The position numbers and the translations under genes were made by a program. From positions 2,790,001 through 2,854,000 of the forward strand of contig NZ_CP022187.1 in assembly GCF_003111645.1 (NCBI RefSeq): a stretch of 64,000 bases of DNA, given 5' to 3'. Positions within the stretch are counted from its first letter, which is position 1, and each line of letters opens with the position of its first letter. Below, piece after piece: positions 49,904-63,589 of this stretch. The DNA is from Parazoarcus communis (lineage in GTDB: Bacteria > Pseudomonadota > Gammaproteobacteria > Burkholderiales > Rhodocyclaceae). The notes under the pieces are model-generated. The model had not been told where the DNA came from. It saw only the letters and a list, made by a program, of their open reading frames with translations, and did not search any database.

Positions 49904-51502
49904 TCATGCCTTGGCCAGCACCGGTGCGTCCTCGAAGGTGTGATGCGGTGCGGGCGACGGCACCGTCCACTCCAGGCCTTCCGCACCTTCCCACGACTGC
50001 GCTTCCGCCTTCTTGCCGCCACGGACGCACTTCACGACGGCGACCAGGAAGATCAGCTGCGACAGGCCGAAACCAAAGGCACCAATCGAAGCCATCGCGT
50101 TGAAATCGGCAAACTGCAGGGCGTAATCCGGAATCCGCCGCGGCATGCCTGCCAGGCCGAGGAAGTGCATCGGGAAGAAGGTGATGTTGAAGAACACGAT
50201 CGAGCACCAGAAATGCAGCTTGCCGAGAAACTCGCTGGGCATGTGCCCGGTCCATTTCGGCAGCCAGTAATAGGCACCGGCGAAAAGGGCGAACAGCGAG
50301 CCTGCGACCAGCACGTAGTGAAAGTGCGCAACGACGTAATAGGTGTCCTGCAGCTGGATGTCGATCGGGGCAATGGCGCAGATCAGGCCGGTGAAGCCGC
50401 CCATTGTGAACACGAAGATGAAGCCTGTGGCCCACAGCATCGGCGTCTCGAAACTGAGCGAACCGCGCCACATGGTCGCCACCCAGTTGAACACCTTCAC
50501 CCCGGTGGGCACCGCGATCAGCATCGTCGCGTACATGAAGAACAGCTGCCCGATTGCCGGCATGCCGGTGGTGAACATGTGGTGTGCCCACACGGTGAAG
50601 GACAGGATCGCAATCGACGAGGTCGCGTACACCATCGAGGCATAGCCAAACAGCGGCTTGCGCGAGAAGGTCGGAATGATCTGGCTGACGATCCCGAAGG
50701 CCGGCAGGATCATGATGTAGACCTCGGGGTGACCGAAGAACCAGAAGATGTGCTGGTACATCACCGGGTCACCGCCACCGGCGGCATTGAAGAAGCTGGT
50801 GCCGAAGTGGCGATCGGTCAGGATCATCGTGACCGCACCGGCCAGCACCGGCATCACCGCGATCAGCAGATAGGCGGTGATCAGCCAGGTCCAGCAGAAC
50901 AGCGGCATGCGCATCATGTTCATGCCGGGCGCGCGCATGTTGAGCACGGTGACGACGATGTTGATCGCGCCCATGATCGAGCTCACGCCCATGATGTGGA
51001 TGGCGAAGATCGCCAGATCCATGCCCATGCCCATCTGCACCGAAAGCGGTGCGTACAGCGTCCACCCCGCAGCGGTTGCGCCGCCGGGCACGAAGAACGA
51101 ACCCAGCAGCAGGATGGCCGCGGGCGGCAGGAGCCAGAAGCTCCAGTTGTTCATGCGCGCGAAGGCCATGTCGCTGGCCCCGATCATCAGCGGGATCATC
51201 CAGTTGGCGAAGCCGACGAAGGCCGGCATGATCGCGCCGAACACCATCACCAGACCGTGCATGGTCGTGAGCTGGTTGAAGAACTCGGGCTCCACCACCT
51301 GCAGACCGGGCTGGAACAGTTCGGCCCGGATCGTCAGCGCCATCACCCCCCCGGAGAGGAACATGATGAAACTGAAGATCATGTACATCGTGCCGATGTC
51401 TTTGTGATTGGTGGTGGTCACCCAGCGCATCAGGCCGGTGGGACCATGCGCATGACCGTGCGGGGGGTGAACGCCGGGCCGATCGTGAGTCAGTGTATTC
51501 AT
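49904..51502 (-). CDS. coxA: Cytochrome c oxidase subunit I (aa3 type)
   Basis: A 532-residue catalytic subunit with 12 membrane segments. Heme and CuB ligands are visible: the heme a His in TTMHGLVMVFG, the His-Tyr cross-link motif in GHPEVYIMILP, the CuB pair in WAHHMF, and the heme a3/heme a His residues in VAHFHYVLVAGS. The D-channel Asn/Asp region and HPEVY with Tyr mark it as an A-type oxidase. The start has GGAGG seven bases upstream. It is second in the operon, after coxB. Confidence 0.97.
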   Translation of the reverse strand: MNTLTHDRPGVHPPHGHAHGPTGLMRWVTTTNHKDIGTMYMIFSFIMFLSGGVMALTIRAELFQPGLQVVEPEFFNQLTTMHGLVMVFGAIMPAFVGFANWMIPLMIGASDMAFARMNNWSFWLLPPAAILLLGSFFVPGGATAAGWTLYAPLSVQMGMGMDLAIFAIHIMGVSSIMGAINIVVTVLNMRAPGMNMMRMPLFCWTWLITAYLLIAVMPVLAGAVTMILTDRHFGTSFFNAAGGGDPVMYQHIFWFFGHPEVYIMILPAFGIVSQIIPTFSRKPLFGYASMVYATSSIAILSFTVWAHHMFTTGMPAIGQLFFMYATMLIAVPTGVKVFNWVATMWRGSLSFETPMLWATGFIFVFTMGGFTGLICAIAPIDIQLQDTYYVVAHFHYVLVAGSLFALFAGAYYWLPKWTGHMPSEFLGKLHFWCSIVFFNITFFPMHFLGLAGMPRRIPDYALQFADFNAMASIGAFGFGLSQLIFLVAVVKCVRGGKKAEAQSWEGAEGLEWTVPSPAPHHTFEDAPVLAKA

Positions 51503-51605
51503 GCACACGCCTCCATTGTCGCGCCCACGCGCGACAGAACCTTGCCATCGGGACCGGGACGGCCCCTACAATCACACCGCAGCAAAACCCGCTTCGACCT
51601 CAGCC

Positions 51606-52736
51606 TCAGCGCGCGGCGACAACGTCTGCCGGCTGCACCGCCTCGCCCGACTGGTTACCCCAGGCGTTACGGGTATAGGTGATCACCGCAGCGAGCTCGG
51701 CGTCCGACAACTGCCCGCCGAATGCGGCCATCGCGGTCCCCGCCTTGCCCTTCAACACCAGTTCGATCTGGCCGCTTGCATCGCCCGTCACCACGGGCGA
51801 GCCATCAAGCGCAGGAAATACCGGCGGCAGCCCCTTGCCATCGGCCTGGTGGCAGGCCGCACAATTGGCCGCGAAAACCTTCTCGCCGCGCTCGACCAGC
51901 TCGGCCAGTGCCCACTCCCGGGCGTCGTCCGCAGAGGCTGTCGTGGCCTGGGCCTGCTGCGATGCGACCCATTCGGTGTATTTCTCTGCCGAGACCACAT
52001 GCACCTCGATCGGCATGAAGCCGTGATCCTTGCCGCAGAGTTCGGCACAGTTGCCGCGATAGATGCCTTCCTTGTCTGCGGTGAACCACGTGTCGCGGAT
52101 GAAGCCGGGAATCGCATCCTGCTTCACGCCGAAAGCCGGCATCCACCACGAATGGATCACGTCGGCGGCGGTCACGAGCACGCGGACCTTCTTGCCCACC
52201 GGCACCACAACCGGATTGTCCACCTCAAGCAGATAGGTATCGCCTTTCTGTTCGCCACCGCTGATCTGGGCGCGCGGTGTGGATGAACCGGACAGGAAGC
52301 GGATGCCCTCCCCTTCGCCCTGCAGATAGTCGTAACCCCACTTCCACTGATAGCCCGTGGCCTTGATGGTGATGTCGGGGTTGGAGGTGTCCTTCATCGC
52401 AATCACGGTCTTGGTGGCGGGCCACGCCATGCCAAGCAGAATCAGCACCGGGATCACCGTCCACGCGATCTCGACCGCCGTGTTTTCATGGAAATTGGCC
52501 GCAACCGCGCCGCGGGACTTGCGATGGTGAATGACAGACCAGAACATGACGCCGAACACCGCGATGAAGATCACCAGGCAGATGATCAGCATCAGGGTAT
52601 GCATGCTGTAGATCTCTGAGGCGATCCGCGTCACCGGCTGCTGGAGGTTGTAACGGCTCGGCGCATCCTGTGCGAGTACGCCGGAGACGTACCCGAGAAG
52701 AAGCGAAGATCCTGCGATACGACCGGCAAAACCCAT
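51606..52736 (-). CDS. coxB: Cytochrome c oxidase subunit II with fused cytochrome c domain
   Basis: A 376-residue subunit II with a signal sequence, two membrane helices (about residues 45-67 and 86-106), a cupredoxin domain with the CuA motif CAELCGKDHGFM, and a C-terminal cytochrome c domain with heme motif CAACH and a distal Met candidate in GTAMAAFGG. The fused heme domain is of the caa3 kind and lets the oxidase take electrons through a tethered cytochrome. It is the first gene of the cox operon; FNR-type boxes lie 79-124 bases upstream. Confidence 0.96.
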   Translation of the reverse strand: MGFAGRIAGSSLLLGYVSGVLAQDAPSRYNLQQPVTRIASEIYSMHTLMLIICLVIFIAVFGVMFWSVIHHRKSRGAVAANFHENTAVEIAWTVIPVLILLGMAWPATKTVIAMKDTSNPDITIKATGYQWKWGYDYLQGEGEGIRFLSGSSTPRAQISGGEQKGDTYLLEVDNPVVVPVGKKVRVLVTAADVIHSWWMPAFGVKQDAIPGFIRDTWFTADKEGIYRGNCAELCGKDHGFMPIEVHVVSAEKYTEWVASQQAQATTASADDAREWALAELVERGEKVFAANCAACHQADGKGLPPVFPALDGSPVVTGDASGQIELVLKGKAGTAMAAFGGQLSDAELAAVITYTRNAWGNQSGEAVQPADVVAAR

Positions 52737-52814
52737 GTCGACCCCCAGCAAAGAACACGATGAGCAGGTGGATCGATGTTGCCACAGTGAAAATCAGGGT
52801 CGCAACATACTTAT

Positions 52815-52934: not shown

Positions 52935-53375
52935 TCAGCCCTCTGTTGCCGACAGCTTGCGCCTCAGCAGGCGCATCAGCGCACCAATCAGGGGCAATCG
53001 GGCATACAGCTCCTCAGCCGCATCCCAGTAATCGCGATGGACTTCGACGCGCCCTGCTTCGTCGAAGGACAGGTGACTGACGCCGCGAATGACGATCGCC
53101 CGGTTACGCAGATTGAGGTGAAAGTCCCAGGCAAGCATCGCCTGCTGTCCCTCGGCAATGATGCTCGTGATCACGAAGCGGGGAGACTCCACGGTCTCGA
53201 ACATGTGCTCGAAGATGCGGGTGATCGCCTTCAGGCCCGCAACATCGTTGAACGGGTCCTTGAAACGGGCATTCTCGGCATAGAAGGCGTCGATTTTCCC
53301 AAGCAGCAGGGGCGTGAGGTTCTCGTAGAACCGCGCCACGTTCTCGGCAGCCGCGCGACAGTCGAAGGAGGTCAT
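52935..53375 (-). CDS. SnoaL-like (NTF2-fold) protein, last gene of the light/photo-oxidative stress operon
   Basis: A 146-residue cone-fold protein of the SnoaL/NTF2 type. Features are the opening helix RFYENL, FKDPFNDVAG, and the strand-rich second half with FHLNLRNR and VSHLSFDEAGRVEVHRDYWDAAEEL. Related proteins are regular members of ChrR-controlled photo-oxidative stress operons. The start overlaps the SDR stop (TAATG). Function (binding or isomerising a small lipid-derived ligand) is unknown. Confidence 0.78.
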   Translation of the reverse strand: MTSFDCRAAAENVARFYENLTPLLLGKIDAFYAENARFKDPFNDVAGLKAITRIFEHMFETVESPRFVITSIIAEGQQAMLAWDFHLNLRNRAIVIRGVSHLSFDEAGRVEVHRDYWDAAEELYARLPLIGALMRLLRRKLSATEG

Positions 53376-54160
53376 TACAGGCCCGTTGCCCGCCGGATGA
53401 GCGGAAAGTAGAGGCGCCGCGGCAGGCACTGCAGCAGCTTGAGAAAGCGGGTGAAACGCTTCGGGAAGTGGGTCTCGAACTCACCGCGGGCAAAGCCGGC
53501 CATGATCTCGTCGGCCGCCTGCTCGGCGGTGATCAGGGCGGGCATGTGGAAATCGTTCTGCGCCGTCAGTGGCGTCGCCACGAAACCGGGACAGATCAGG
53601 TGCACGCCCAGTCCGCGCGGCGCCAGATCCATGTAGAGCGTCTCGGAAAAGTTGATCAGCGCCGCCTTCGATGGCCCGTAGGTGGCGGCATTGGGCAAGC
53701 CGCCGTAGCCTGCGACCGAGGCCACGATGGCAATCGCCCCCCGCCCGCGTTCGAGCATCCCGGGCACCACCGCGGCCACCCCATCCATGACCCCGAGCAG
53801 GTTGATGTTCAGCGTCTTCCGAATGCGCTCCGGTGTCAGCTCCCACGCCCGCAGCGGCTGATAGGTACCCGCATTCAGTATCACGAGATCGAGCCCGCCC
53901 CACTGGGCAAGCAGACGGTCGCGCACACGCTCGAGTTCGCCTGGTCGGGTCACGTCCATGGCCGCGACGACCGCGCCCTCGCACTGTGCTGCCAGCGCAT
54001 CCAGGCGATCGAGACCGCGTGCGGACAGCGCCACCCGCGCGCCACCTGCCGCCAGCTTGCGCGCCAGCGCCGCGCCGATGCCGGTCGAGGCGCCGACCAG
54101 CCAGACCCGCTGCCCGCGCCAGTCGGTGATCGGCGGATTGAGGGGTGCGAACAAGGCCAT
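53375..54160 (-). CDS. Short-chain dehydrogenase/reductase
   Basis: A 261-residue classical SDR with the nucleotide-binding motif GASTGIG (about residues 23-29), NAG in ILNAGTY, the catalytic Ser in VASVAGYGG and the YxxxK pair in TYGPSKAALINF. It would reduce a carbonyl or oxidise an alcohol with NAD(P). Starts and stops overlap neighbouring genes (ATGA and TAATG). The family match to the SDR in ChrR-type operons, which I recall, suggests a role in modified fatty acid or lipid metabolism. Confidence 0.85.
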   Translation of the reverse strand: MALFAPLNPPITDWRGQRVWLVGASTGIGAALARKLAAGGARVALSARGLDRLDALAAQCEGAVVAAMDVTRPGELERVRDRLLAQWGGLDLVILNAGTYQPLRAWELTPERIRKTLNINLLGVMDGVAAVVPGMLERGRGAIAIVASVAGYGGLPNAATYGPSKAALINFSETLYMDLAPRGLGVHLICPGFVATPLTAQNDFHMPALITAEQAADEIMAGFARGEFETHFPKRFTRFLKLLQCLPRRLYFPLIRRATGL

Positions 54161-54693
54161 CAGGGCGCCCGTTTGTAAAAGGACAGCGTGACCTCGCCGA
54201 GGTGCACGCCCCACTTGCTCATCGCCGAGCGGTTCAGCATCACCTTGTCGTCCATCAGGAACATCCAGTCGTCAAAGTCTACGTTGTAGACCTTCCCATC
54301 CACGGGTAGTGCCATTACATAGCGCCAGCGCAGTGCGTTTCCGCGCGCCTCGCCGTGTGCCTGGCCGACAACGTCATCTGCCGTGCCGATGTACGACTCG
54401 GGGCCGCTGCGGGTGATGGTCCATACGCGGCGCTGGGTGCTTCCATCCGAGTAGGTGAAGCGCTCGTCCAGAGTCCCCACGTCGCCCTCCCAGTTGGCCT
54501 CGATCACCACCTGGAAGCGCTTGACCACTTCGCCGGAGCGATCCTGGAAGACGCCGTGGGCGTCGATCGTACCGTTGAAGTAGTCGCGCAGATCCAGCAC
54601 GGGCGTGGTGCCCCGGTACTTTTCGATATCCACGGACGAGCACCCCGCCAGACTCATCAGGCCGGCGAGCAACAGAACCAGTTTTCGCATCAT
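54160..54693 (-). CDS. DUF3833 lipoprotein
   Basis: A 177-residue lipoprotein with lipobox LAGC near residue 18, followed by a mostly beta domain. Conserved pieces of the DUF3833 family are FQDRSGEVVKRF, SYIGTADDVVGQA and DWMFLMDDKVMLNRSAMSKWG. It is probably attached to the membrane facing the periplasm, possibly binding a lipid. It overlaps the MFS and SDR genes at both ends (ATGA junctions). Members occur in photo-oxidative stress operons of other proteobacteria. Confidence 0.85.
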   Translation of the reverse strand: MMRKLVLLLAGLMSLAGCSSVDIEKYRGTTPVLDLRDYFNGTIDAHGVFQDRSGEVVKRFQVVIEANWEGDVGTLDERFTYSDGSTQRRVWTITRSGPESYIGTADDVVGQAHGEARGNALRWRYVMALPVDGKVYNVDFDDWMFLMDDKVMLNRSAMSKWGVHLGEVTLSFYKRAP

Positions 54694-55982
54694 GCTGTTT
54701 CTCCATTTTTGGGGGCAGGCTCAATGGCGCTGCGCCAGTGCCACAGCAGCCCGATGGCGACGAACTTGAGCGCCACCGGCAGCAGGGCATACACCGTCGC
54801 CAGACCCGACAGCGCGTCGGCGCTGCGCACGCCCGGTGCATAGCCGAGCCAGCCAAGCAGCGGCAGCGAAAGGCCGGCCGCCAGCGCCAGATTGGCCTTG
54901 GTCACGAAATTCCACCAACCGAACCACGACCCGGCACGTGCATCGCCGGAATCGCCCTCGCCGGCCAGCAGATCGGCGAGCATGGACGGCGGCATCGCCA
55001 GATCGGCGCCAAGTGCCATGCCGGAAAGAATGCAGATTGCCGCGTAGGCCGTGGTCTCGCCGGCGCCGAGCAGGCTTGCCCACGCAAACACCAGCACTGC
55101 AAGCACCATGCCGGCGAGCCAGGTCTGCAGTTTGCCGATACGCCGCGACAGGCTCGCCCACGCCGGCAGGCTGAGCGCGGCGCTGAGGAAATAGAGCACC
55201 AGGAAGAGCCCGGCCAGCTGAGGGGCCTGCAGCACGTCGGCAACGAAGAACAGGACCGTTGCCGACGGGATGGCCGCCGCGATTCCGTTGGCAGCGAACA
55301 CCAGCAGCAGCTTCCTGAAGGGCCGGCATGACACCGCTGCCAGCAGGCCGGCCAGTACAGGCTGGCGCATGTGCCGCCGCGGTGGCGCAAGCGGGGCGGC
55401 GAGCAGGGTCCATCCGCCACAGAGCATGAGCAGCGGAATGAACAGCCACGCCATGCGTGACAGGCCCTGCGCCTCTCCTCCTTCGGCCGCGAGCAGCCCG
55501 GGCAGTGCCGCCGCCATCACCACGCCGAACAGGGCAAAAGCCTCGCGGCTGGCCACGACCCGGGTGCGCAGCGCACGCGTGGGCGCGACTTCCGCCCCCC
55601 ACGCGTTGTAGGCGATGGTGGCCACCGAATAGGCGAGCGACACCAGCGTGACCAGCACCGCCAGCCACAGCGCCCCTGCGCCTTGCGGCGGTACCAGCAG
55701 GCCGACCATGCCCGCTGCGAGCAAGGGCAGCGCCGACAGCACCAGCAGGCGACGCCCCGCGAGCCGGTCGCTGAGCCAGCCGATCAGCGGGTCGGAGACC
55801 GCATCGAAGACTCTCACCCCGAGCAGCACGAAGCCGACAGTCGCCAGCGACAGGCCGAGGCTGTCCGCATAGAGTCGCGGCACATACACGTAAATGGGCA
55901 GTGCGGCGAAGGCCAGCGGCAAGCCCAGCGCACCATAGGCGAGAATGGCGGAACGACCGAATCCCGCGTCGGCGGCGCTCAT
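54690..55982 (-). CDS. MFS transporter, GPH (MFS_2) type
   Basis: A 430-residue inner-membrane transporter with 12 hydrophobic segments. The loop between segments 2 and 3 has DAVSDPLIGWLSDRL, a hallmark of the glycoside-pentoside-hexuronide or MFS_2 (MFSD2-like) group, some of which carry lysophospholipids. In this operon a lipid or flippase-type role is more likely than sugar transport, but this is inference. The start overlaps the stop of the chalcone isomerase-like gene and the stop overlaps the DUF3833 gene. Confidence 0.85.
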   Translation of the reverse strand: MSAADAGFGRSAILAYGALGLPLAFAALPIYVYVPRLYADSLGLSLATVGFVLLGVRVFDAVSDPLIGWLSDRLAGRRLLVLSALPLLAAGMVGLLVPPQGAGALWLAVLVTLVSLAYSVATIAYNAWGAEVAPTRALRTRVVASREAFALFGVVMAAALPGLLAAEGGEAQGLSRMAWLFIPLLMLCGGWTLLAAPLAPPRRHMRQPVLAGLLAAVSCRPFRKLLLVFAANGIAAAIPSATVLFFVADVLQAPQLAGLFLVLYFLSAALSLPAWASLSRRIGKLQTWLAGMVLAVLVFAWASLLGAGETTAYAAICILSGMALGADLAMPPSMLADLLAGEGDSGDARAGSWFGWWNFVTKANLALAAGLSLPLLGWLGYAPGVRSADALSGLATVYALLPVALKFVAIGLLWHWRSAIEPAPKNGETA

Positions 55983-56557
55983 TTTGCAGCGCCCGTGCTT
56001 CCCAGCAGACGCTCACGCAAGCCGGGCTCGCGCGTGCGGTGATCCAGCCAGATGGCGAAGAAGGCGCGCGCGAGGTCGGGGTCGGCAAACGCGGCGGTGG
56101 CCTGCCCCTCATGCCAGAAGCGCGCCCCCGCGCCCGGCAGCCGCAGGCCGACCAGTGTTTCGCCCGCCGCGACCGAGGGCAGTGCGCGCGCAAGCATCTC
56201 GCGCCAGGTCGCCAGCCGCGCCTCGTCTGCAAACCCCATCCTGCGCATCTCGTCGATACTGGTGTCGACCAGTCGCTCGCCCTCGATGTCGCGCGCATAG
56301 CGGATGGCGAGCGCAAACATGCCGTCTTCCGACCAGCCTGCACCCGTCGGCACCCACAGCGCAGCGTCGTACACCTTGAAGCCGAACCAGCGCATCTCTC
56401 CGCCCCCGAGCGGACGCATGCCCCCCGCCAGCGGCTGCACATGGGACACCACCGCTTCCGGCAGTGCGACCTGCCCTGGCAGCGCGGCATGCACGGGGGC
56501 GGCTTGCAGGCACAGCGCGAGCACGAGGACGGCGACAGGAGACATGACTGCACGCAT
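55979..56557 (-). CDS. Exported chalcone isomerase-like protein
   Basis: A 192-residue protein with a signal peptide (to about residue 24, PVHAAL) and a chalcone isomerase-like fold. Matching segments are WFGFKVYDAALWVP, YARDIEGERLVDTSIDEMRRMG and FFAIWLDHRTREPGLRERLLG. The fold binds fatty acids in several family members. It directly follows the Cfa-type gene and overlaps the MFS gene, in keeping with a role in handling modified fatty acids in the periplasm. Confidence 0.82.
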   Translation of the reverse strand: MRAVMSPVAVLVLALCLQAAPVHAALPGQVALPEAVVSHVQPLAGGMRPLGGGEMRWFGFKVYDAALWVPTGAGWSEDGMFALAIRYARDIEGERLVDTSIDEMRRMGFADEARLATWREMLARALPSVAAGETLVGLRLPGAGARFWHEGQATAAFADPDLARAFFAIWLDHRTREPGLRERLLGSTGAAK

Positions 56558-56560
56558 GGC

Positions 56561-57790
56561 TCAGCGCGCCGCCGCGTGGGTGAAGGTGTAGTGGCGCACA
56601 CCGATGTCGCCGGTGTTGAAGCCGGCCTCGCAGTACGCCAGATAGAAGCGCCACATGCGGATGAAGCGATCGGGAAAACCCAATGCCCTGACCTCGGCGA
56701 CACGCGCCTCGAAGGTCTCGCGCCAGCGCGCCAGCGTGCGCCCGTAGTCCGGCCCGAAGGCAAAATCGTCCACCACTTCGAGCCCAACGCGTCCGGCCTG
56801 CTGCTGCACCACCGCGGGGCTGGGCAGCATGCCGCCCGGGAAGATGTGGCGCTGGATGAAATCGGTGCCGCGACGGTAGCGCGCAAACAGTTCGTCGGCG
56901 ATGGTGATCGACTGCACAACACAGCGTCCGCCAGGCTTGAGCAGCGCCGAGAGCTGCCTGAAATAGGTGGGCCAGAAGCGCTCGCCGACGGCCTCGATCA
57001 TCTCGATCGACACGATATGGTCGTACTGTCCCTTCACGTCGCGGTAATCGCACAGCTCGAGCTGCACCCGGTCGGAGAAACCGCCGCGTTCTGCGCGCTC
57101 GCGTGCATGTGCGAGCTGCGACGGCGACAGCGTCAGCCCCAGCACCCGACAGCCGAACTCGGTTGCCGCCACCTCGGCGAAACCACCCCAGCCACAACCG
57201 ATCTCGAGGATGATCTGCCCCGGGCGGACATCGAGTTGCTGCAGGATGCGGCGGTACTTGCGCTGCTGCGCCGCCTCGAGCGCCTCATCGGCGTGCTCGA
57301 AGAGCGCGGCCGAATAGGTCATACCCGGGTCGAGCCACAGTTTGTAAAAGTCGTTGCCAAGATCGTAATGGGCCTCGATGTTGCGCTTCGAGCCCGTACG
57401 CGTGTTTGCCCGCAGCAGATGGGTGAGGCGGTGCCCGATCAGACGCAGAACCCGCCCGTAGATCGCCTTCTTGAGCTGTTCGCGGTTCGACGACAGCAGC
57501 GTAAGCAGCCCCGTCAGATCCTCGGTGTCCCAGTCCCCATCCATGTAGCTTTCGGCAAAACCGATGTCACCGCGCGCCAGCGCCTCGCTGAACACTGCGT
57601 GGTCGCGAACCCGCAGATGGGCGACGAGCTGGCCGTGCCCTGCCCGCAGATGCTGGTTGTCCGGCAGCTCAAGCGCCAGCGCGCCGCCTTCGAGGCGGTC
57701 GAACATTTCAAGCGCCAGCCGCGTCGCGCGAGGCAAGTGGCCGAGGGATTCGAGCGCCAGGGGGCGCACGGCATTGTCGACGGCGTTCAT
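56561..57790 (-). CDS. Cyclopropane-fatty-acid synthase-like methyltransferase
   Basis: A 409-residue SAM-dependent methyltransferase of the Cfa family. The SAM motif is LEIGCGWGGFA at about residue 200, preceded by AHYDLGNDFYKLWLDPGMTYS and followed by SIEMIEAVG and FPGGMLPS, all Cfa signatures. It methylenates or methylates unsaturated fatty acyl chains of phospholipids. In ChrR/LitR-type operons such genes have been linked to furan fatty acid formation (UfaM/UfaO relatives, from memory), so furan fatty acid synthesis is a strong alternative to cyclopropane formation. Start overlaps the DUF1365 stop (ATGA). Confidence 0.85.
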   Translation of the reverse strand: MNAVDNAVRPLALESLGHLPRATRLALEMFDRLEGGALALELPDNQHLRAGHGQLVAHLRVRDHAVFSEALARGDIGFAESYMDGDWDTEDLTGLLTLLSSNREQLKKAIYGRVLRLIGHRLTHLLRANTRTGSKRNIEAHYDLGNDFYKLWLDPGMTYSAALFEHADEALEAAQQRKYRRILQQLDVRPGQIILEIGCGWGGFAEVAATEFGCRVLGLTLSPSQLAHARERAERGGFSDRVQLELCDYRDVKGQYDHIVSIEMIEAVGERFWPTYFRQLSALLKPGGRCVVQSITIADELFARYRRGTDFIQRHIFPGGMLPSPAVVQQQAGRVGLEVVDDFAFGPDYGRTLARWRETFEARVAEVRALGFPDRFIRMWRFYLAYCEAGFNTGDIGVRHYTFTHAAAR

Positions 57791-58584
57791 CAGGTGGTCT
57801 CCTCGATCGGCGGCAGCGGCTTGCGGTGAAAGCTCACCCGTTTCAGCGCAAGTCGCAATGCCTGCCAGTGGATACGGGCAACAATGCCCAGGGTCATGAA
57901 GGGGTAGCGCAGCAGCCATTTGCGCATCGCGCCACCGGTCAGCGCCTGTGCACGACCGCCGACGCGGGTGGTGAGCTGTTGCTCACCACCGTCCCAGTAA
58001 TCGATCGCGACCGCATGCACCGCGCCGCGGCTCTCGAAGCGGAAGCGGTATTCGCCCCGCACCGGAAAGAAGGGGGAAACATGGAACACCTTGCTGGCGC
58101 GCAACTCGTCGCCATGCTCGATCGGGCGGCAATCCGGGTGATGGACAAGGTAGTTGTGGTGCTCGCCAAAGGTATTGCTGACCTCGGCCAGCACCACGCG
58201 CAGCTTTCCGGCTGCGTCATGGCAACACCAGAAGCTGACCGGATTGAACACGTAGCCGAGGACGCGCGGCATGGTCTGCAGCACCACCTCGCCGTCGCAC
58301 ACCTCGGCCACGCCGTGATGCCGAAGGATCTCGCGCATCCAGGGCAGGAGGGGTGAGCCATCGCGGCGACCATGGTCCCGCGACAGGAAGGCGAACGCGT
58401 TGAAGCGGTCGATACCGAGCAGCGGCACGCTGAGCCGGTCGACACTGCCGAGCGGCAGTCGCAGGAAGGCCGTCGGATAGACAAAGCGGTTGCGGGCGCC
58501 AACGTGACGCTCGTGCATCACCGCACCGAAGCACACGGTGGCGTCGAGCGGACCGGCCACGCCCGGTGCGGCGGCCGCTTTCAT
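57790..58584 (-). CDS. DUF1365 protein
   Basis: A 264-residue protein of the DUF1365 family, whose members stand next to a FAD amine oxidase-like gene and a Cfa-like gene in many proteobacteria. Conserved pieces are VMHERHVGARNRFVYP, the PRVLGYVFNPVSFWCCHD segment and FHVSPFFPVRGEYRF. No enzymatic motif is known to me. Overlaps the genes on both sides by ATGA junctions. It is inferred to act together with those neighbours on membrane fatty acids. Confidence 0.88.
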   Translation of the reverse strand: MKAAAAPGVAGPLDATVCFGAVMHERHVGARNRFVYPTAFLRLPLGSVDRLSVPLLGIDRFNAFAFLSRDHGRRDGSPLLPWMREILRHHGVAEVCDGEVVLQTMPRVLGYVFNPVSFWCCHDAAGKLRVVLAEVSNTFGEHHNYLVHHPDCRPIEHGDELRASKVFHVSPFFPVRGEYRFRFESRGAVHAVAIDYWDGGEQQLTTRVGGRAQALTGGAMRKWLLRYPFMTLGIVARIHWQALRLALKRVSFHRKPLPPIEETT

Positions 58585-59918
58585 GCCCCCGCTCCGCTGT
58601 GAGCCAGCGCAGTGTCCGCATGCCACGGAATCTCGGCGCCCAGCCCTTCGGCAACGGCGACCGCCGACTTCAGCCCGTCTTCGTGAAAGCCGTAGCCCGT
58701 CCACGCGCCGGCGAACCAGCTGCGGTTCCGCCCCTGAATGCTGGGCAGCGCTGCCTGTGCGTCGATCGCAGCCTGGTCGAATACCGGGTGCGCGTAGTGG
58801 ATGGTGCGCAGAATCCTGTCCGCGCGCGGCGGCCGGAACGGGTTGAGTGACACCACCACCGGCGTATCGAAAGGCAGCGGCTGCAAGCGGTTGATCAGAT
58901 AGCTCACCGACACTGGCCGCGCGTCGACCGCGCCTGCACCGGCAAGATAGTTCCACGCCGACCACACCTTGCGCCGGCGCGGCAGCAGGGCCTCGTCGGT
59001 ATGAACCACGGCGGTGTTGGCCTGATAGCTGACGCCACCGAGAATGCGGCGCTCTTCGACGCTGGCGCGGTCGCCGAGCAGGGCGAGCGTCTGGTCGCTG
59101 TGGCAGGCAAATACCACCTCATCGAAACGTTCGGCGCCGGCACGGGAATGCACCCACACACCATCCTCGTCGCGATCGACACGCAACACCGGCGAGGCGA
59201 CACGCACGTCCTTGAGCGAGGCGACGATCTTTTCGACGTAGCTGCGTCCGCCGCAACGCACCGTCATCCACTGCGGACGATCGAGCACCTGCAGCAGCCC
59301 GTGGTTGTGGCAGAAGCGCACAAAGGTGGCGAGCGGGTAGGCAAGCATGGTGCGGGTCGGGCATGACCAGATCGCGGCCGCCATCGGCAACAGATACCAG
59401 TCGCGGAAAGCGGTGCCGTAACGTTCGCGCTGCAGGAACTCACCCAGGCTGAGTGCCGGCATCGAACCCTCTGCAGCCATCCGGGTCGTGTCGCGGTTGA
59501 ATCGCATGATGTCGCGCAACATGCCGAGGAAGGAGGGACGCAGCAGGTTGCGGCGCTGGGCAAACACGGTGCCGAGGTCGGAGCCGGCCCACTCGATGGC
59601 GGGCGACTCGAGGCTGACCCCAAAGCTCATCTCGCTCTCGACCGACTCGACCCCCAGATGCTCGAACAAGGCGCACAGGTTCGGATACGTGCGACGGTTG
59701 AACACCAGAAAGCCGGTATCCACGGGATGCGTCACCCCCTCCACCGTCACATCAATCGTGTTGGTATGGCCGCCGACATAGCTCGCGGCCTCGAACAGGG
59801 TGATCTGATTGCGTGGCGACAGCAGCCAGGCGGCACCCAGTCCGGCCACACCACCGCCCACCACCGCGATGCGACGGCTGCCACCGGTGATCACCCGTTC
59901 GATTTCACCCATGCGCAT
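58581..59918 (-). CDS. FAD-dependent amine oxidase-like oxidoreductase
   Basis: A 445-residue NAD(P)-binding Rossmann flavoprotein with the FAD motif [16 protein letters not shown] at about residues 19-34, then [12 protein letters not shown], and a C-terminal FAD segment [19 protein letters not shown]. It is related to amine oxidases and carotenoid or fatty acid desaturases. In photo-oxidative stress operons its relatives are reported to desaturate fatty acids for furan fatty acid synthesis (UfaD type, from memory). The start lies inside the end of folE2 (14-base overlap); an ATG two codons later is equally good. Confidence 0.85.
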
Positions 59919-60729
59919 GGGCAGGGCCCTCCGGGTTCTCGCCTTCGATCAGGGCATAGGCAGAGTGGTTGTGAATGGACTCGAAATTCTCGGACTCGAC
60001 CGTCCACGCCGCGATGCGCTTGTCTGCGCGCAGTCGCAGGGCGATGTCGCGAACCAGGTCCTCGACGAACTTCGGGTTGTCGTAGGCGCGCTCGGTCACC
60101 CACTTTTCGTCCGGCCGCTTGAGCAGGCCGAACACTTCGCAGGACGCCTCCTCTTCAGCCATGCGTACCAGCTCGATCACATCCACATCGGCACGCAGGC
60201 GCGCCGAAATGCTGATGTGCGAACGCTGGTTGTGGGCACCGTATTCGGAGATCTTCTTCGAGCACGGGCACAGGCTCGTGACCGGCACCACCACGGTGAG
60301 CGTGGTCTGCAACTCGCCACCGGGCGACTGCGCCACAACAACCCGGACATCGAGGTCGAGCAGACTGCCGACACCCGAAACCGGCGCGGTCTTGTGCATG
60401 AACCAGGGGAAGGCCGCCTCGATCCGCCCCGAATCTGCTTCAAGACGCACCAGCATCTCGGCGAACAGATCGCGCAGACCTGCCAGATCGAGCGCCTCGC
60501 GCTCGGCCTCCAGCAGTTCGACGAAACGCGACATGTGCGTTCCCTTGACCTCGGGAGGCAGGCCGACCGTCATCTCTATCGTGGCTACGGTGTGCTGCAC
60601 ACGGCCGTCGTCGCCCGCAAGGACGAGCGGATAGCGCAGGCCGCGAACACCGACATGCTGGATGGCAAGCGCACGCTCATCGCGGCTGGCCTGGACGTCA
60701 GGCAGAAAGAACTTGTCGGGTGCGTTCAT
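59905..60729 (-). CDS. folE2: GTP cyclohydrolase IB (FolE2)
   Basis: A 274-residue type IB GTP cyclohydrolase, making 7,8-dihydroneopterin triphosphate from GTP for folate. Family marks are the catalytic Cys in [21 protein letters not shown] and late motifs with Asn/His ([10 protein letters not shown]). Unlike FolE it does not require zinc. It is placed third in the operon opposite the CarH-like gene; the light-induced set of Pseudomonas putida likewise includes a GTP cyclohydrolase, as I recall, perhaps to make folate cofactor for photolyase or to replace oxidised folate. Confidence 0.95.
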
Positions 60730-60762
60730 GCTCGCTCCTGAAGATATGAAAACAATGAAGAA

Positions 60763-61323
60763 TCAGGGCCGCGCGTCGAGCAAACGCTCGATCGCGCCGA
60801 CCAGAATCGGGCTCTCGGGGCTGACCTGGGTGGGAAAGCTCGTCACCCTCGCTCCGCTGCGGTCGACGAGATACTTGTGAAAATTCCACCGCGGACGCTC
60901 GCCGGAAAGATCGGCCAGTTTCAGATAGAAGGGGTTGGCCTGCGGTCCGGACACCGTGCTGCGGGCAAACATCGGAAACTGAACGCCGTAAGTCGTGCGG
61001 CAGAAATCTGCAATCTCGGCGTTCTCGCCCGGCTCCTGATTGAAGTCGTTGGACGGGAAGCCGATCACAACCAGCCCGCGCGCCCCGTACTTGCGGTACA
61101 GACGTTCGAGCCCGTCGTACTGGTTGGTATAGCCGCAATAGCTCGCGGTATTGACGACCAGCAATACCTTGCCTGCGTACTGGCACAGCGACTGGCTGGC
61201 CTCGTCCTGCAGGCGCGGGAAGGCATGGTCGAGCAGTGCCGGGCAGGCCGGCGGTGCAGCCACCGCCGGCATCATGGCCGTCAGCAGAACACCCGCGACG
61301 ATCAGCTTCAGGCCGCCAGTCAC
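60763..61323 (-). CDS. Exported glutathione peroxidase-family protein
   Basis: A 186-residue thiol peroxidase with a signal peptide (MTGGLKLIVAGVLLTAMMPAVAA) and so probably periplasmic. The peroxidatic Cys is in NTASYCGYTNQY, with the conserved Gln-like region FPSNDFNQEPG and the Trp-Asn pair in RWNFHKYLV. It is a Cys-type, not selenocysteine-type, enzyme and would reduce lipid or organic peroxides. Its start overlaps the stop of the small exported protein (ATGA). Lipid peroxide removal fits a singlet oxygen response. Confidence 0.92.
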   Translation of the reverse strand: MTGGLKLIVAGVLLTAMMPAVAAPPACPALLDHAFPRLQDEASQSLCQYAGKVLLVVNTASYCGYTNQYDGLERLYRKYGARGLVVIGFPSNDFNQEPGENAEIADFCRTTYGVQFPMFARSTVSGPQANPFYLKLADLSGERPRWNFHKYLVDRSGARVTSFPTQVSPESPILVGAIERLLDARP

Positions 61324-61562
61324 TGTCCGACGCTCCGGATCGGGGCCTGCATGCCTGCATCGCCACGATGAATGAAAATCATCAGATCGAGGTCATAACC
61401 AGCCTGTTTGTCCATGACAGCGTGACTGGACAAGACTTCCGGTTCCACCGCGGGCGAGTGCCCCGAATTGCCCGCAAATGCCGCAAATGAAACGCAGACC
61501 GCAGCCGTAATCAGCGCAGGAGCCACGCGTTTCCCTGTCGTGAGGTGCGTTTTGTTGTTCAT
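61320..61562 (-). CDS. Small exported protein of unknown function, first gene of the light/photo-oxidative operon
   Basis: An 80-residue protein with a signal peptide (cleavage near residues 31-34, FAAFAGN) and a short mature part of about 47 residues (SHAVMDKQAGYDLDLMIFIHRG). I do not recognise a family. It overlaps the glutathione peroxidase gene by four bases and is the operon's first gene, next to the CarH-like operator region. An AGGA stands eight bases before the chosen ATG; an ATG two codons earlier (61568) falls inside the operator-like palindrome. Confidence 0.65.
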   Translation of the reverse strand: MNNKTHLTTGKRVAPALITAAVCVSFAAFAGNSGHSPAVEPEVLSSHAVMDKQAGYDLDLMIFIHRGDAGMQAPIRSVGQ

Positions 61563-61567
61563 GGTCA

Positions 61568-61643
61568 TTGTCCTAGACAAATGAGTTCGATGACCCTAAG
61601 ATAGATTCAACAAAACCACTTGTCAACGGTTTGTCCACGACAA
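61568..61643. promoter_or_regulatory. Operator region of the CarH/LitR-like regulator: TTGTC-N3-GACAA palindromes and 11-bp direct repeats
   Basis: TTGTC-CTA-GACAA lies at 61568-61580 and TTGTC-CAC-GACAA at 61631-61643. On the minus strand CGTGGACAA (61631-61639) and CGTTGACAA (61620-61628) repeat with an 11-base step, and CCTAGACAA (61572-61580) occurs on the plus strand. All three fit nnTnnACAn, the CarH half-site consensus as I recall it, and 11 bp is the CarH repeat period. Binding by the adjacent regulator is inferred. Confidence 0.65.
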
Positions 61644-61644
61644 A

Positions 61645-62565
61645 ATGAAAACCACACCGAACACCGAAACCGAGCTGAGCATCGCAGCGGTCGAACGCGA
61701 TACAGGACTTTCCAAGGACACCCTCAGGGTGTGGGAGCGCAGATACGGCTTCCCCACGCCAAAGCGGGACAGCAATGGCGAGCGCCTTTACCCCCAGCAT
61801 CAGGTAGACAAGCTGCGCCTGATCCGGCGCCTGCTCGACACCGGGCACAGACCGTCCCGAATCATCTCCGCCACGCCGGAGGAACTCGGCGCGCTGCTCG
61901 ATGCGCAACGTAACAAGGCGAGTTCGCCCGAACAGCAGGTGCGCGAGCAGGCACTGCTGCAGTACGTGCGCCTGCACCGCAGCAGCGAACTGGTATCGGG
62001 CCTGCATCAGGCGCTGATGAAACAGGGCCTGCAGCGTTTCGTCCTCGAAACCATCGCGCCGCTCAACGAAGCCGTGGGAGAAGGCTGGATGCGGGGCGAG
62101 ATCGACGTGCCGGAGGAGCATCTGTATACCGAGCAGGTGCAGAATGTGCTTCGCAGCGCCATTGGCGCCAATGCCGTGTCCGGGGGGCACCCGCGCGTGC
62201 TGCTGACCACCTTCCCGGACGAGCATCACATCCTCGGCCTGCTGATGGCGGAGGCCACGCTGGTTCCGGAAGGCGCATCCTGCGTCTCGCTCGGCACCCG
62301 CACGCCGCTGGCGGACATTCGGGGTGCTGCGGTCGGCGGCAATTTCGATATCGTCGGCCTGTCCTTCAGCATTGCCTACCCGGCCCGTCAGGCCATCGAA
62401 GGCCTGATCGAACTGCGCGCCGCGCTCCCCGAGCACATCACGATCTGGGCAGGTGGCGCAGCGGTCAAGGGCAAGCAGCGCCGCCTGCCAGGCATCCGGG
62501 TGATCAACGGCCTGACCGACACCGTGGCCGCCCTGCATGAGTGGCGCGCCGCCCACCCGGGCTGA
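61645..62565 (+). CDS. CarH/LitR-type MerR regulator with B12-binding photoreceptor domain
   Basis: A 306-residue regulator: MerR winged helix at about residues 12-80 (SKDTLRVWERRYGFPTPKR), a helical-bundle domain at about 95-175 and a C-terminal cobalamin-binding Rossmann domain. Both sequence marks of adenosylcobalamin photoreceptors are present: Wx9EH (Trp148, Glu158, His159) and ExHxxG (Glu193, His195, Gly198), His195 being the likely lower cobalt ligand. In the dark, CarH with adenosylcobalamin binds DNA as a tetramer; light breaks the Co-C bond and releases it. It is divergent from an 11-gene photo-oxidative stress operon with CarH-like half-sites between. Cobalamin binding is inferred from motifs. 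Confidence 0.88.
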   Translation: MKTTPNTETELSIAAVERDTGLSKDTLRVWERRYGFPTPKRDSNGERLYPQHQVDKLRLIRRLLDTGHRPSRIISATPEELGALLDAQRNKASSPEQQVREQALLQYVRLHRSSELVSGLHQALMKQGLQRFVLETIAPLNEAVGEGWMRGEIDVPEEHLYTEQVQNVLRSAIGANAVSGGHPRVLLTTFPDEHHILGLLMAEATLVPEGASCVSLGTRTPLADIRGAAVGGNFDIVGLSFSIAYPARQAIEGLIELRAALPEHITIWAGGAAVKGKQRRLPGIRVINGLTDTVAALHEWRAAHPG

Positions 62566-62767: not shown

Positions 62768-63589
62768 ATGCTTTACCCAGAACTCTTCCGCACCCTCGAG
62801 TCGGCACGCTGGAACATGGCGGAGGACATCCCCTGGTCCGACTTCGACCCCGCACTGCTGACAGACGAACAGGCGGTGACGATCAAGATGAATGCGATCA
62901 CCGAATGGTCGGCGCTTCCCGCCACCGAGATGTTTCTGCGCGACAACAGCACCGACTCCGACTTCGCCGCCTTCATGTCAATCTGGTTCTATGAAGAGCA
63001 GAAGCATTCGCTGGTGCTGATGGAATACCTGCGCCGCTTCCGCCCCGAGCTGCAGCCGACCGAAGCCGAGCTCGACGCCGTGCGCTTCGAGTTCGATCCT
63101 GCCCCGCCGCTCGAAACCCTGATGCTGCACTTCTGCGGCGAGGTCCGCCTCACCCAGTGGTACCGCCGGGCGGCCGAATGGCATACGGAGCCCGTGATCA
63201 AGAACATCTACGATCACATCTCGCGCGATGAGGCACGCCACGGCGGGGCCTACCTGAAGTACATGAAACGCGCCATCGAGCGCAGCGGCGACGAGGCCCG
63301 ACGCGCCTTTGCCAAGCTCGGTGTGCTGATGGCCAACTCCTCGCGCAGCGCCCGCCCGCTGCACCCCACCAATCTGCACGTGGCGCAGCAGTTCTTCCCG
63401 CGCGACACCGTGCAGTCCCGCGTACCCGACCCCGACTGGCTGGAGCACTGGCTCGACACCCAGATCGACTTCGACCGTGACTGCGAGGCGCGGGTGGTCG
63501 GCGGCATCCTGCGCAACCTGTCGAGTCTGTTCGGGCAGAAGTTCGACACCGTCAGCGAGCTCAACCGCTACCGCAAGTCGCTCGCCTGA
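62768..63589 (+). CDS. Ferritin-like diiron protein (acyl-ACP desaturase-like fold)
   Basis: A 273-residue ferritin-superfamily protein with a complete diiron ligand set: Glu46, Glu77 and His80 (EEQKH), Glu125, and Glu155 and His158 (DEARH). This four-helix pattern is that of acyl-ACP desaturases and related oxygenases. The N-terminus (RWNMAEDIPWSDFD) also recalls that group. It lies on the plus strand 202 bases after the CarH-like gene, with AAGGGGAG before the ATG. A lipid desaturase or oxygenase is the best guess; the substrate is unknown. Confidence 0.75.
   Translation: MLYPELFRTLESARWNMAEDIPWSDFDPALLTDEQAVTIKMNAITEWSALPATEMFLRDNSTDSDFAAFMSIWFYEEQKHSLVLMEYLRRFRPELQPTEAELDAVRFEFDPAPPLETLMLHFCGEVRLTQWYRRAAEWHTEPVIKNIYDHISRDEARHGGAYLKYMKRAIERSGDEARRAFAKLGVLMANSSRSARPLHPTNLHVAQQFFPRDTVQSRVPDPDWLEHWLDTQIDFDRDCEARVVGGILRNLSSLFGQKFDTVSELNRYRKSLA

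Follow-up and report, generated by a model that had tools for sequence, protein, structure and literature searches.

The stretch of DNA analysed here (the window) comprises 64,000 nucleotides of the Parazoarcus communis genome (contig NZ_CP022187.1, positions 2,790,001 to 2,854,000), and it carries a carH-like regulator gene facing an operon of eleven genes on the minus strand. We consider it probable that the product of this gene is an adenosylcobalamin (AdoCbl)-binding repressor of the CarH type, which directly controls both the divergent operon and its own gene and is released from DNA by light. Conserved operators of the CarH type lend good support to a direct control of the operon by this divergent protein, and the location of these operators between regulator and operon suggests that light would switch on the whole set, whose probable functions are the synthesis of protective membrane lipids and the repair of oxidative damage. 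An initial annotation of the window had already placed the operon under direct B12-light control; the direct control has held up at the level of sequence, whereas the sensor is apparently no simple copy of Thermus CarH, since the position of histidine H132 is not a histidine in any copy checked. The operators, a third site inside the first operon gene and further sites elsewhere in the genome are additions to that annotation.

The 82-bp intergenic region holds two palindromes of the form TTGTC-N3-GACAA, O1 and O2, placed around overlapping sigma-70-like promoters whose putative -10 elements overlap each other. Published CarH operators consist of 11-bp repeats, nnnnTnnACAn, one of which includes the -35 element (as described in passages of PMC9304148). 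On the operon strand of the window, GTCGTGGACAA-ACCGTTGACAA reads as two tandem repeats of this type, the second of which contains the -35 element. For comparison we used the best 80 of 112 regulator-encoding stretches in genome contigs, which represent 78 distinct loci and are mostly betaproteobacterial by record title; 77 of these relatives have upstream sequence (L056 was dropped). At least two boxes scoring 10/12 or better lie between about -260 and +50 in 60 of the 77, where the background expectation for one box of at least 10/12 is 0.05 per 320 bp. A paired search recovered O1 and O2 in 63 of the 77 loci, at a spacing of 63 bp in 41 (62-64 bp in 45), 72-77 bp in 15, 58 bp in two and 80 bp in one; the extra 10-12 bp of the 72-77 bp class often lie between the operon -35 element and O2 and amount to about one CarH repeat unit or helical turn. 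Half-site orientation was counted over 63 distinct segments, the window included. The centre base of O1 is T in 62 of these and TnnACA points toward carH in 56, while O2 has a central A in 45, with TnnACA pointing toward the operon in 36 and the opposite way in 16. O2 stands in tandem with the -35 element in 26 of the 63 segments, as against 14 of 2863 at other offsets. The sites in Pseudomonas, one overlapping the -35 element and one after the start site, follow the same logic as O1 and O2, but the operator itself differs, being T(G/A)TACA-N12-TGTA(C/T)A there and TTGTCCNRGACAA here (PMC9758184, in part).

A third putative box, O3, lies inside the first operon gene. Many relatives have a further box 131-182 bp from O1 inside this gene, nine of them at the 160 bp found in the window. 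Read in frame, O3 corresponds to V-x-D, often followed by K or N. In a codon check that picked first-gene frames by protein motif only (57 frames, with L022 mis-registered by this rule), the box was present in 25, of which 21 have the V-x-D element and four do not. The codons at O3 in the relatives are largely uniform, with GTC for 19 of 21 Val, GAC for 21 of 21 Asp, AAA for 7 of 7 Lys and TTT for 8 of 8 preceding Phe, counts that come from related sequences and are no independent events; the usage in four operon genes of the window is GTC for 38 of 126 Val, GAC for 47 of 75 Asp, AAA for 3 of 25 Lys and TTT for 14 of 66 Phe. The direction is clear: the DNA at O3 appears to be under selection beyond that on the protein alone, with its synonymous codons frozen. 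An earlier count, with the box in 29 of 32 first-gene frames versus a synonymous-resampling mean of 8.7, was set aside because some frames, such as L028 and L035-L037, overran O1. No clear helical phase of O3 emerged, the O3-O1 distances being scattered over 131-182 bp; O3 may act by looping or as a roadblock.

The initial annotation had proposed looking for the same divergent arrangement in relatives, and it is widespread. Gene content was scored with the proteins of the window as tblastn queries (E up to 1e-4, first gene not counted) in the 62 related loci whose sequence extends 9 kb or more beyond the regulator on its upstream side. The FAD, DUF1365 and Cfa genes are divergent from the regulator in 52 of them, and hence the arrangement is not a matter of chance. 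All eight genes from FAD to SnoaL are kept in 46 loci and all ten from GPx to SnoaL in 17. Gene by gene, the count is 53 loci for the FAD protein, 52 for each of DUF1365, Cfa, DUF3833 and SDR, 49 for MFS_2 and for SnoaL, and 47 for the chalcone-isomerase-like protein; the least constant members are FolE2 (35) and the glutathione-peroxidase-like GPx (26). From these counts the lipid part is the constant part, with GPx and FolE2 optional. The locus counts contain some redundancy, since the match tables of L039 and L040, which carry different names of metagenome-assembled genomes, are identical. These two are labelled Porticoccus and Rhodocyclaceae, each with two carH copies on one strand, and one label is probably a binning error. 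A rearranged locus was seen in genome G013 (L117, G013:C109), where carH and a DUF1365-Cfa pair are on the same strand; the pair is separated from carH by a perfect box, and a further box precedes the regulator, so that the box has followed the operon.

What this constant part may produce is indicated by the furan fatty acid pathway, in which UfaM, UfaD and UfaO, the last a DUF1365 protein, turn cis-vaccenate into a methylated furan fatty acid (PMC7380195, in the passages concerned). The genes of these types are adjacent here (CMAS, FAD oxidoreductase, DUF1365), matched by family and order rather than by sequence with the R. sphaeroides proteins, and the order, UfaD-UfaO-UfaM, is that of the R. 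palustris genes, which are consecutive by locus number (RPA2571-2570-2569; same passages). The furan fatty acid idea of the initial annotation is strengthened by this match. The same lipids also bring in a quite different explanation, namely that the operon is part of a singlet-oxygen regulon under ChrR-RpoE, of the kind found in alphaproteobacteria, with the CarH-like gene a mere neighbour: furan fatty acids rise on chrR loss in R. sphaeroides, and the gene set overlaps the ChrR-linked set there in ufaD and ufaO (PMC7380195, in part). We hold this to be extremely improbable, as the operon has a CarH-type operator and a sigma-70-like promoter, TTGACA-N17-TATCTT. The initial annotation had itself named a ChrR-RpoE pair elsewhere in the genome as a competing possibility; a genome search gave no ChrR match over the family cut-off and three weak ones below it, with extracytoplasmic function (ECF) sigma factors not searched genome-wide. 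The best of the weak matches, at 2038394, lies in a cupin gene with no sigma factor by eye among the neighbours read. As for FolE2, two FolE-type cyclohydrolase matches elsewhere in the genome make it an extra GTP cyclohydrolase, which is consistent with a conditional role, and we infer a possible tie to the folate antenna of photolyases.

The genome is a 4.57-Mb single contig (label G000). When no more than one mismatch is allowed, the 15-mer TTTGTCCWRGACAAA occurs in it at five places, which are O1, O2 and three others. One box precedes, at a distance of about 0.2 kb, a DNA photolyase gene, after which comes a photolyase-related (DPRP) gene. Between this box and the photolyase, ahead of phr, is a short frame (G000:C1:4238124-4238838, L102) in which paired cysteines were read by eye; it appears to resemble DUF2256. 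Another box is 144 bp upstream of a flavoprotein gene (Pfam NAD_binding_8, Amino_oxidase), presumably renalase-like. The third, a perfect box at G000:C1:3480450-3480464 (L100, L157), lies upstream of genes for a Trp_halogenase-type protein and a chorismatase, in the order of arcA-arcB. In Azoarcus sp. BH72 arcA and arcB are among the genes for arcuflavin, a pigment with relatives, the xanthomonadins, that give protection from photo-oxidation (PMC3949708, in part), and light control of a carotenoid-like pigment via this box is possible. The box is identical in the closest relative, G001; only the arcA-side flank has drifted there, the other being largely kept, and so the box may serve a gene on the other side, where no clear target was found. 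It borders on what seems to be a pigment cluster of the aryl-polyene/arcuflavin type, the rest of which was recognised by eye, and on its other side are a small membrane-protein frame and a gene for a methyl-accepting chemotaxis protein.

The motif was further compared across 26 genomes, 15 with the regulator and 11 without. The exact 15-mer occurs in nine, all among the regulator-bearing ones, and in five of the nine (G002, G009, G011, G013 and G015) solely at the regulator locus. Exact places away from this locus number 11 in the 15 carH genomes (in G000, G001, G004 and G018) and none in the other 11. With up to one mismatch, in a comparison that left out six regulator-bearing genomes, G000 and G001 among them, there were 45 strand hits versus 5 reversed controls in nine carH genomes, and 5 versus 8 in seven genomes without the regulator. 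The support for a wider regulon comes from the genes adjoining the boxes. A box lies beside a photolyase gene in four genomes, G000, G001, G004 and G018. The photolyase of G001 is the orthologue of that in G000; the one in G004 has 24% identity to it and is confirmed by Pfam, and the one in G018, recognised by tblastn, has 29% and is separated from its box by an SDR frame. Beside the presumed renalase-like gene it is found in G000, G001 and G003. The boxes at G004:C187 (PAS chemoreceptor), G018:C15 and G003:C56 have no clear target. Those in G004 (L125/L130, at G004:C187:14721 and 14828) precede a PAS-HAMP chemoreceptor gene with 107 bp from one to the other, and the chemoreceptors near these boxes and near the 3480450 box hint at regulated taxis. 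For the shorter 13-mer TTGTCNNNGACAA, 12 places were found in the P. communis genome versus 5 for the reversed pattern; seven of the 12 were not counted as operators, as they have other cores and several are inside genes.

The regulator itself has the make-up of a B12 sensor. The MerR domain and the two AdoCbl motifs reported in the initial annotation are borne out by Pfam and by alignment to the Thermus CarH structures (3whp/5c8d): an N-terminal MerR DNA-binding domain is followed by B12-binding_2 and B12-binding domains, all above the Pfam cut-off (the last at 33.2 bits, cut-off 32.1), and the motifs W148-x9-E158-H159 and E193-x-H195-x-x-G198 are complete. Against the NCBIfam CarH equivalog TransRegCarH (NF052513) the protein scores 131 bits, below the curated cut-off of 400; its nearest named relatives among the regulator-encoding stretches are from Azoarcus (84% identity) and Parazoarcus (78%). 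W148, E158, H159 and H195 align with W131, E141, H142 and H177 of Thermus CarH, and their equivalents are kept in all 78 readable regulators of the 78-locus set plus the window (79 rows, L028 unreadable). Since this set was found in part by peptide patterns containing W-M and E-E-H, which biases a residue count from it alone, the check was repeated on 17 further copies outside the window genome, obtained by a whole-protein search of relatives, and the four residues are kept in 17 of 17. A cobalamin adenosyltransferase is encoded in the same genome. Genome G003 has a second, diverged carH-like gene (G003:C91:30481-31365, L152) with 37% identity and one in-frame TGA, probably a pseudogene.

In domain order, in these four residues and in the TnnACA 11-bp repeats with one on the -35 element, the protein resembles the class I CarH/LitR regulators of Thermus, Bacillus megaterium and Myxococcus. 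Class I proteins mainly control carotenoid genes, whereas the targets here are fatty-acid modification and repair genes, and the sites, unlike those of class I, are palindromes flanking overlapping divergent promoters. The class II LitR proteins PmlR and PplR of Pseudomonas mendocina and P. putida belong to the same MerR-LitR family (PMC9758184, in part). They have no B12 Rossmann domain and are driven by a short LOV protein, and a nine-gene light-induced operon with UfaM, an FAD oxidoreductase, an SDR and hypothetical genes is under such a pair, next to separate folate and photolyase/cryptochrome operons in the regulon (same passages). It follows from this likeness in operon content that the regulator here might also need a separate photoreceptor. 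This we judge very improbable: both B12 domains are complete, the C-terminal one whose absence marks class II being present, and an exact back-translated LOV core pattern (G-x-N-C-R-F-L-Q) had no match in the genome, a narrow test in which BLUF was not searched. The two systems, compared by annotation and not by sequence, differ further in that here folE2 is inside the operon and a third site is inside the first gene.

Several observations weigh against a light-released CarH repressor with a wide regulon, and the most surprising concerns the sensor. H132 of Thermus CarH becomes the second cobalt ligand in the light, and in one study the H132A protein stays mostly tetrameric after light, with an earlier contrary report of dissociation also noted (PMC10442372, in part). 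Met149 occupies this position here; in the pattern-biased 78-locus set plus the window the residue is M in 46, L in 17, V in 11, I in two and G in two, and in the 17 further copies it is M, V, L, A, I, S, P or K, so that no copy checked has the upper histidine of the Thermus light state. At the locus, the FAD-DUF1365-Cfa core is missing in 10 of the 62 loci, the O1/O2 pair in 14 of the 77, and O2 is without TnnACA on the operon strand in 27 of the 63 segments. The exact 15-mer is missing in 6 of the 15 carH genomes, and in this genome it gives 5 strand hits versus 2 for the reversed control, a modest excess. With one mismatch, 17 of the 24 places in the nine carH genomes are at the regulator locus, and for this reason the looser pattern says little on a wider regulon; the places off the locus are 7 in these nine genomes versus 4 in the seven without the regulator. 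With up to two mismatches there are 15 strand hits versus 16 controls in this genome, which is why our discussion is limited to places with none or one. Finally, the genes, their conservation, the operators and the codon freezing are read from sequence, while repression, light, B12, chemistry and wider regulon are what we infer from them.

The missing histidine is also what speaks for a direct repressor that uses the same boxes but responds to AdoCbl abundance or to redox state instead of light (PMC10442372, in part), and AdoCbl metabolism is present by way of the adenosyltransferase. We find this improbable, though worth keeping in mind. The same box stands before DNA photolyases in other genomes, non-orthologous ones included; light induces the operon in Pseudomonas whose content, by annotation, is similar (PMC9758184, in part); and other B12 light receptors also do without this histidine, with Arg in CtMerR, Gln in SasPcob and Tyr in AbDPcob, for which other steps are possible (passages of PMC11796333). 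H132 is no defining feature of all B12 receptors, yet it separates this clade from Thermus CarH. Light sensing by this clade is thus still likely, but the switch must differ from that of Thermus.

For a repressor released by light, the mechanism could run as follows. In the dark, an AdoCbl-bound multimer would sit on O1, O2 and O3, with O1 over the carH -35 element and O2 forming tandem CarH repeats with the operon -35 element; since each box would also lie in the start region of the opposite promoter, both overlapping promoters would be closed. Light would break the Co-C bond, the protein would leave the DNA, and sigma-70 polymerase would transcribe the operon. Its products may then methylate, desaturate and oxidise acyl chains into furan fatty acids, in the manner of UfaM, UfaD and UfaO, while GPx would reduce peroxides and FolE2, the extra cyclohydrolase, would supply pterin and folate. 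Through the copies of this box ahead of photolyase, flavoprotein and pigment genes, the regulon would reach further. A bolder version is tentative, and we would sooner doubt it than rely on it: that a betaproteobacterial clade of B12 photoreceptors runs a non-carotenoid photoprotection regulon, which takes in furan membrane lipids, the repair of peroxide damage, photolyases and an aryl-polyene pigment cluster; that the switch has three operators, one of them in frame in the first gene; and that the DNA is released by a photochemical step without the bis-His cobalt ligation of Thermus CarH.

The gene set and its control by light are not new in kind, given the known systems of Pseudomonas and Vibrio cholerae. 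In V. cholerae, blue light induces a Cfa-type gene and photolyase via the MerR-like VCA0056, a likeness to the present case, but ChrR is also required there and the MerR gene is in one predicted operon with phr (PMC5241685, in part). The novelty lies in a complete B12 sensor standing before these genes, in an operator that differs from the known ones, in a third site within a gene, in the lack of H132 and in the wider regulon that is predicted. Searches of open-licence PMC papers found no account of such an operon with CarH in Rhodocyclales.

Features of the carH-operon region, in window coordinates
Feature	Coordinates	Strand	Remarks
SnoaL-like, last gene of run	52935..53375	-	SnoaL_2 PF12680
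Short-chain dehydrogenase (SDR)	53375..54160	-	adh_short PF00106
DUF3833 protein	54160..54693	-	PF12915
MFS_2 transporter	54690..55982	-	PF13347
Chalcone-isomerase-like	55979..56557	-	Chalcone_3 PF16036
Cfa-type S-adenosylmethionine (SAM) methyltransferase, UfaM-like	56561..57790	-	CMAS PF02353; UfaM in Pseudomonas operon (PMC9758184, in part)
DUF1365 protein, UfaO-like	57790..58584	-	PF07103; PMC7380195, in part
FAD amine-oxidase-like, UfaD-like	58581..59918	-	Amino_oxidase PF01593/NAD_binding_8; UfaD role from PMC7380195, in part
FolE2, GTP cyclohydrolase IB	59905..60729	-	GCHY-1 PF02649; NF010200 over cut-off
Exported glutathione-peroxidase-like (GPx)	60763..61323	-	GSHPx PF00255; Cys at catalytic place, by eye
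Small exported protein, 80 aa, no family	61320..61562	-	carries O3; C-terminal hydrophobic-H-[RQN] motif in many relatives
Operator O3 (putative)	61408..61420	.	TTGTCCATGACAG on +; 10/12; inside first operon gene, 160 bp from O1
Operator O1 (putative)	61568..61580	.	TTGTCCTAGACAA; covers putative carH -35 (TAGACA 61574-61579)
Putative carH promoter	61574..61602	+	-35 TAGACA 61574-61579, -10 TAAGAT 61597-61602, spacer 17
Putative operon promoter	61598..61626	-	-35 TTGACA 61626-61621, -10 TATCTT 61603-61598, spacer 17
Operator O2 (putative)	61631..61643	.	TTGTCCACGACAA; minus strand: TGGACA, then TTGACA 11 bp on
carH-like regulator	61645..62565	+	Pfam MerR_1 + B12-binding_2 + B12-binding; NCBIfam; alignments (3whp/5c8d)

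The eleven operon genes and the regulator are at the coordinates first assigned to them, and Pfam supports their names; the 80-residue product of the first gene has no match to a Pfam or NCBIfam model at E 0.001. The genes overlap nearly throughout, with GTGA between the first gene and GPx, 14 bp between FolE2 and FAD, ATGA between FAD and DUF1365 and TGATG between DUF1365 and Cfa, and, in the 3' half, ATGA at both ends of MFS_2, TGATG between DUF3833 and SDR and TAATG between SDR and SnoaL; the two gaps are small (33 bp between GPx and FolE2, 3 bp between Cfa and the chalcone-isomerase-like gene). Cytochrome oxidase subunit genes follow the operon on the same strand at 49904-52751 (COX2 by Pfam, subunit I by eye), and COX2 is at the same place in L015-L017, L075 and L087. 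On the other side, 3' of the regulator at 62768-63589, is a diiron/ferritin-like gene with weak matches to FA_desaturase_2 and to the structure of DesA2 (1za0). Of the 78 related loci, 18 have this gene downstream of carH in the same orientation, eight of them within 100 bp, and it may share the regulon; by eye, no operator box precedes the window copy.

With these assignments, B12 light sensing would gain a target other than carotenoids, and bacterial furan fatty acids would come under direct light control. O3 shows clearly how a regulatory site can limit the choice of codons. The carH-locus operator has the specificity needed for direct testing, and the lack of H132 throughout the clade provides a natural test of how a CarH-type receptor can switch without bis-His ligation.

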